DNA from: an uncultured Eubacteriales bacterium
GTDB taxonomy: Bacteria; Bacillota; Clostridia; Saccharofermentanales; UBA5734
NCBI GenBank assembly: GCA_903835065.1
Contig: CAILLO010000077.1
Coordinates: forward strand, 1-48,620
Length of the DNA stretch: 48,620 nt
Direction: 5' to 3'
Shown here: positions 37,276 through 37,516 of the stretch, in pieces
Numbering within the stretch: position 1 is the first letter of the stretch
How the letters are laid out: each line of letters opens with the position of its first letter
Made by a program: the position numbers and the translations under genes
Notes under the pieces: model-generated
The model's input: only the letters and a program-made list of their open reading frames with translations
Databases searched by the model: none
Told to the model about the DNA's origin: nothing

Positions 37276-37307
37276 AAAAACGAAACGGAGGGCAGCCCGT
37301 CCGCCTC
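37276..37307 (-). terminator. Intrinsic terminator in the purine operon leader
   Basis: On the minus strand GAGGCGGACGGG (37296-37307) pairs with CCCTCCGTTTC (37282-37292) through a CTG loop, with one bulged C and two G-U pairs, followed by GTTTTT. It lies 33 bases downstream of the aptamer and about 77 bases before the purE ATG, the position expected for a riboswitch expression platform. No competing antiterminator pairing could be drawn with confidence. Confidence 0.75.
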
Positions 37308-37340
37308 GCGAAAGGGCCGTCGCTCGAAATTTTCCGGTCC

Positions 37341-37440
37341 GACTCCCATAGCCAGGCGATCCGCGGCCGCCGGTAGAAACGTCCGGACCGCGGGCGGTGC
37401 TTCGAAGAACGCCCAGTCACCGGACCTATATGGGATCGTC
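37341..37440 (-). ncRNA. Guanine-type purine riboswitch aptamer with enlarged P2 arm
   Basis: The minus-strand leader of purE carries the purine-riboswitch core. P1 is UCCCAU/AUGGGA, extended by GAC/GUC. J1/2 begins AUA (CAUAUA as in the xpt aptamer). P2 is GUCCGG/CCGGAC. J2/3 is exactly GUUUCUACC (37372-37380). P3 is GGCGG/UCGCC around the seven-base loop CCGCGGA, the canonical 5-7-5 layout. J3/1 ends GCUAUG, with the cytosine (C74 equivalent) that selects guanine. Unlike classical members, the P2 loop is about 30 bases long with an inner GGGCG/CGCCC hairpin, and J3/1 has one extra base. It is followed by an intrinsic terminator, so guanine should switch the purine operon off. Confidence 0.78.
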
Positions 37441-37486
37441 CGGCACGGGTCTCCTCGGAAGGGAGCCGTGCCTGTCGAACAACCTC

Positions 37487-37516
37487 ACAATAGCAATCCG
37501 GCGGCGCCTTCGTCAA
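37487..37516 (-). promoter_or_regulatory. Promoter of the purine operon
   Basis: On the minus strand TTGACG (37511-37516), an 18-base spacer and TATTGT (37487-37492). Transcription would start around 37480, about 40 bases before the aptamer, and give a 280-base leader before purE. The promoter begins 18 bases after the stop of the DUF1638 gene. The same TATTGT -10 is used at the catabolic operon promoter. Confidence 0.68.

Follow-up and report, generated by a model that had tools for sequence, protein, structure and literature searches.

A guanine-class purine riboswitch with the architecture of Rfam family RF00167 very probably lies ahead of the purE-F-N-H-D genes, in the 5′ leader of their operon, in an uncultured Clostridia bacterium; the apex of its loop L2 has been replaced by a hairpin. 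Within a known class it represents a rare structural variant, whose L2 hairpin is conserved between two species of the same genus. The DNA analysed (hereafter the window, 48,620 nucleotides) is part of one contig in a 2.5-Mb draft genome, and the closest named record to its PurF is from uncultured Clostridiales bacterium LaPlata_bin-1746 (78% identical). Records titled 'Bifidobacterium breve' MAG (L042, L043, L050, L076 and L079) match this PurF at the identity level of the surrounding Acidimicrobiia-type records, and their titles look mislabelled.

A purine-riboswitch core upstream of purE

The leader occupies roughly 37520-37276 of the minus strand and comprises a promoter-like site, an aptamer resembling that of purine riboswitches (37440-37341) and an intrinsic terminator. 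The core between these two flanking elements, upstream of purE-F-N-H-D, is complete, its parts following in the order CCCAUAUAG (P1/J1-2), GUUUCUACC (J2/3, 37380-37372), a 7-nt L3 and GGCUAUGGG, with the terminator hairpin after them. The promoter-like site is sigma-70-like, TTGACG-N18-TATTGT with a TG-extended -10 (37516-37487), as judged by pattern search and conservation in a congener from the same genus; one such site was found in a 601-base region against 0.0 expected in shuffles, in agreement with the promoter proposed in the first-pass annotation. Over 37520-37480, the -35 and -10 region is 71% identical to that of the congener.

The gene that follows, purE (AIR carboxylase, minus strand 37199-36681; Pfam PF00731, E=5.6e-59), starts at ATG 37199, which is preceded by GGGAGGG and is conserved in the congener. 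A long ORF opens earlier, at 37349 inside the aptamer, but ATG 37199 with its Shine-Dalgarno sequence was preferred as the start of purE. Pfam identifies the remaining genes of the operon (minus strand 36684-30035) as purF, purN, purH, purD, a nadD-yqeK fusion and rsfS. The fusion (31629-30415, minus strand) encodes a protein of 404 aa, in which a NadD-type cytidylyltransferase (PF01467) is joined to an HD domain (PF01966, YqeK-like), and rsfS comes after it. On the other side, directly upstream of the riboswitch promoter, a larC-type nickel insertion gene (PF01969) is followed by a DUF1638 gene (39538-37534, minus strand), and the end of the DUF1638 gene is also found upstream of the element in the congener.

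When this stretch was compared with all 4227 Rfam families, RF00167 (Purine) was the best match for the leader (minus strand, 37453-37329; 31.2 bits, E=0.0034), and it is also the single Purine match in the whole genome (E=0.006). Given these two values, the match exceeds chance, though it is sub-threshold: the gathering threshold of 37 bits is missed by both the window and the congener (30.0 bits), and a search of the window at that threshold returns a tRNA alone and nothing at the leader. The Purine-model check proposed in the first-pass annotation thus yielded a match at the expected place, but one below the cut-off, and for this reason the element is described here as a divergent variant and not as a threshold member of the family. 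In the alignment, a 27-29-nt stretch of L2 falls outside the model.

A covariance model built from the window and congener variants alone (R1) was then applied to 391 class genomes. It returned 7 other matches with E<0.001, all 7 being purine riboswitches over the Rfam cut-off (72-89 bits). The J2/3 letters that these elements have in common enter into the R1 test; even so, it shows that the resemblance to purine riboswitches is specific.

Aptamer anatomy and the split L2 loop

Positions within the aptamer are numbered according to the xpt crystal structure, and 45 distinct canonical elements collected in this analysis serve as the reference for conservation. The covariance-model alignment places the 5′ strand of P1, UCCCAUA, at 37435-37429, and beyond a 2-nt bulge GAC (37440-37438) lengthens it at the lower end; the 3′ strand, UAUGGGA (37350-37344), is extended by GUC (37343-37341). 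J1/2 (37428-37426) consists of U22, A23 and G24, the last replacing the A (73%) or U (27%) of the canonical elements. P2 is formed by GUCCGG (25-30, 37425-37420) and CCGGAC (40-45), together with a mismatch between U31 (37419) and U39, the latter lying with the 3′ strand at 37387-37381. J2/3 (G46-C54, 37380-37372) is the same as the canonical consensus and holds the ligand pocket with U47, U51, A52 and C53. P3 (C54-G72, 37372-37353) pairs GGCGG with UCGCC and is capped by L3, CCGCGGA (37366-37360). J3/1 has two bases, G73 and C74 (37352-37351), C74 being the base expected to pair with guanine. The assignments of the P1 5′ strand and of P2 draw on comparison with the congener as well, and those of J1/2 and J3/1 on the 45 elements.

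All the pocket positions that are invariant among the 45 canonical elements are kept, namely U22, A23, G46, U47, U49, C50, U51, A52, C53, C74 and U75; C54 and A76 are also as in canonical elements, in which nearly all compared positions are invariant. C74 (37351), the base found in 100% of the 45, is likewise a C in the congener. Outside the loops, the departures are G24, G73 (7% of canonical elements, 3/45, against 93% with A73) and a U that bulges out at the base of P3. The last of these had been read as an additional base in J3/1; Infernal instead aligns it within the 3′ strand of P3 (37354). The core itself, its guanine-type C74, the terminator and, by Pfam, the purE operon, all recognized by the first-pass annotation, are upheld, and so is its suggestion of a structural variant.

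Related variation was seen elsewhere in the Clostridia. Two purine riboswitches of canonical length (L128 and L129) are altered at the base of P3 or in J3/1 (CUACG...UUUGCUAUG; GGCUAUG), which shows natural variation both at position 73 and in the 54-72 pair. In a genome of the same family, a Purine riboswitch that passes the cut-off with 63 bits (L003:1501-1603) has a divergent J2/3, GUCUCUAUG, and G73; it precedes a gene for a phosphoribosyltransferase-like protein, with an ABC-transporter ATPase ORF next.

The congener carries an orthologous element, also before purE. Its junctions, P2 and the stem of the insert are identical to those of the window, and P3 is nearly so, a single G-U pair there having become A-U. 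In P1, two pairs show compensatory changes (A-U to G-C and U-A to C-G), and one C-G has become U-G. The comparison of related purE leaders suggested earlier therefore gives conserved junctions and covariation in P1, but none in P2 or in the insert stem among the only two known sequences. The insert stem, GGGCG/CGCCC, is invariant, while its apical loop differs in both sequence and length (13 nt in the window, 11 nt in the congener). By comparison, the expression platform is only 35% identical between the two species, and neighbouring leader sequence 35-46%.

In place of the 7-nt L2 loop of RF00167, the element has a loop split by an inserted hairpin (37418-37390; covariance model and folding), which reads G32-A33-C34, then U and GGGCG (37414-37410), a 13-nt loop, CGCCC (37396-37392) and G-C. 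The insert is thus a 5-bp hairpin at the apex of L2 that replaces A35-U36. The first-pass annotation was right about the size of L2, some 30 bases with an inner stem, but not in attributing it to an enlarged P2 arm. G37-G38 (37389-37388), the kissing partners of C61-C60, are present in 100% of the canonical elements and are kept here; the bases of G37-C61 and G38-C60 occur in both species. A33 and A66 are kept too. U34 has become C and A65 has become G in both species, A35 is replaced, and A64 is a G, so that the altered positions match one another as 34/65 and 35/64. Among the 45 canonical elements, the bases that are changed have frequencies of 100% (A35), 98% (U34), 93% (A64), 98% (A65) and 93% (A73). 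The new L2 strand GCGG is complementary to CCGC of L3, with 4 pairs in the window and 3 in the congener.

The known L2-L3 contact is built of two base tetrads, one made up of A33, A66, C60 and position 38, and the other of U34-A65-C61-G37; it has been reported to be needed for ligand binding and to be highly conserved (PMC3764141). From the bases retained, both Watson-Crick pairs and one tetrad can persist, with the other tetrad altered in two of its members, and we infer that the kissing contact forms. The earlier claim that this contact must be changed would then apply to its rim, at 34/65 and 35/64, and not to G37-C61, G38-C60, A33 and A66, which are kept. Given the changes at A35, U34, A64, A65 and A73 together with the P3 bulge, the affinity for the ligand could be reduced.

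A further reading, which we consider possible but hold only tentatively, is that the two elements represent a structural subclass, in which L2 has turned into an internal loop with a peripheral hairpin and the kissing interface has been re-wired, C34 facing G65 and the L2 strand GCGG being able to form 3-4 bp with CCGC/CCGG of L3. If this is true, an L2-L3 contact that was supposed to be closed can accommodate a domain inserted in nature, and the added domain may adjust affinity or provide room for some other interaction. Riboswitches as a group have long been known to accept stem-loop insertions at particular sites (PMC2258182).

The split-L2 build was found in the window and in one sister species, and nowhere else among the sequences searched. 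J1/2 and J2/3 lie 20-25 nt apart in the 59 screened elements with canonical arms (22 nt in 49/59), as compared with 46 nt in the window and 44 nt in the congener. No third split-L2 element was found with RF00167 and R1 in 188 genomes of the order, with these two models and an exact pattern in 391 genomes of the class, with a pattern in 398 genomes of the phylum, or in two IMG/VR scans; divergent examples could escape these searches, which used strict filters or exact patterns, and the genome samples overlap. After screening for P1/P2 complementarity, the window and the congener alone remain. Three other long-arm matches were rejected, since they represent upstream promoter TATA boxes ahead of canonical 22-nt arms. 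In the open-access literature searched, we found no description of an L2 or P2 insertion in guanine riboswitches.

Ligand, control and alternative explanations

Guanine or hypoxanthine is most likely the ligand, judging from the presence of U22, U47, U51, C53 and C74, a J2/3 without insertion, and the lack of any marker feature of the 2′-deoxyguanosine, xanthine-II or guanine-II classes. With the guanine-I elements of RF00167, the leader shares the three-way junction of P1, P2 and P3 (seen in the covariance-model alignment and in the minimum-energy fold of the congener), UA in J1/2, the J2/3 pocket sequence, C74, the bases of G37-C61 and G38-C60, the 7-nt L3, the terminator platform and the purE context. 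It differs from them in having the L2 hairpin for A35-U36, C/G for U34/A65, G for A64, G24, G73, the bulged U of P3, a sub-gathering score and a P2 arm about twice the usual, mostly 22-nt, length. 

The related classes are distinguished by their junctions. Both 2′-dG-I and 2′-dG-II (RF01510 and RF03165) have the same three-way junction but carry C at the position of U51 (58 in 2′-dG-I), and 2′-dG-II has two further bases in J3/1 (PMC8872408); the element has neither feature, its position 51 being U (37375). As in the present case, 2′-dG-I departs from the canonical L2/L3 while retaining two G-C kissing pairs (PMC8872408). Xanthine-II elements use the same scaffold with G51 and insertions in both J2/3 and J3/1, and lie before purine-degradation genes (PMC9295807), in contrast to the U51, uninterrupted J2/3 and two-base J3/1 observed here. 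Guanine-II shares the scaffold, U22, U51, C74 and a guanine ligand, but is marked by a single-nucleotide insertion in J2/3, most of the xanthine-II changes and PRT genes downstream (PMC9295807); the element has no such insertion in GUUUCUACC and precedes purE.

These comparisons bear on the suggestion, made in the first-pass annotation for 2′-deoxyguanosine, that the element has a shifted ligand specificity (for 2′-deoxyguanosine, guanosine or xanthine), with the split L2 as part of the change. Scaffold variants with new ligands do exist, some having altered loops or J3/1 (PMC9295807; PMC8872408), and in the element G73 and G24 stand where A73 and A/U24 are usual. However, G73 also occurs in 3 of the 45 canonical elements, U51 is kept, J2/3 is the canonical consensus, and the genes downstream serve de novo purine synthesis and not nucleoside breakdown or DNA metabolism. 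Furthermore, the 2dG-I model (RF01510) has no match in the genome, and the 2dG-II model, whose use had been proposed as a check, misses the element and gives one noise match (E=4.5) on another contig. We thus regard a shifted specificity as quite unlikely, and 2′-deoxyguanosine as a poor candidate.

It is very improbable, too, that the leader is a decayed or weakened switch in which the insertion has abolished the kissing contact and hardly any response to ligand is left. The changes at L2/L3 positions 34, 35, 64 and 65 and the sub-threshold score would fit such decay, but the junction, the bases of both G-C kissing pairs, P2, P3, the insert stem and the terminator organisation are all conserved in two species against the 35-46% identity nearby. 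A chance resemblance, in a GC-rich leader that works in some other way such as plain attenuation, is scarcely credible: its folding energy is indeed no better than that of shuffled sequence, yet a specific Purine match stands at the right place before purE in both species, and the reciprocal search with R1 retrieves genuine purine riboswitches. For this GC-rich RNA, in which z-scores are uninformative, folding by itself is weak evidence. In the congener, the unconstrained minimum-energy fold reproduces the predicted junction, including P1, P2, the insert hairpin and a P3 that has the bulged U; in the window, the aptamer fold lies 3.2 kcal/mol above the unconstrained minimum, as calculated without ligand or tertiary contacts.

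By the established mechanism of this class, known from the xpt guanine riboswitch, the ligand is bound through pairing with C74 and contacts to U22, U47 and U51; it locks P1 and steers the expression platform. For a guanine riboswitch in the purE leader, we propose by analogy that guanine (or hypoxanthine) would sit in the three-way junction, paired with C74 and contacted by the same three uridines. P2 and P3 would be held side by side by the kissing contact on G37-C61 and G38-C60, as in canonical elements, with the L2 apex hairpin pointing outward and the loop partners changed to match (U34/A65 to C/G, A64 to G).

Downstream, a strong intrinsic terminator, a 12-bp hairpin (37308-37281, -16.0 kcal/mol) followed by UUUUU (37280-37276), is predicted by folding to compete with an overlapping candidate antiterminator hairpin, CGGCCC..GGGCUG (37319-37293, -15.5 kcal/mol). 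The two are mutually exclusive and of near-equal energy, and the congener has the same arrangement in unrelated sequence. Simple folding reveals no ligand-state-dependent choice in either leader, nor does co-folding link the aptamer to the terminator. As is usual for genes of purine synthesis, bound guanine would be expected to favour termination (OFF). A canonical purine riboswitch in another Clostridia genome (L102, 98.8 bits) also precedes PurE-like and PurC-like ORFs, identified by eye from their translations; hence the gene context of the variant is ordinary.

The purine riboswitch is a model RNA, and the element offers a ready-made natural test of which part of the L2-L3 contact matters: L2 is opened by a hairpin, yet the bases of the two G-C kissing pairs are kept and the partners of the altered bases have changed with them. 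It also pinpoints a place in the RNA that can accept an extra domain. Finally, such elements score below the Rfam cut-off, and so purine control of similar operons goes unannotated.
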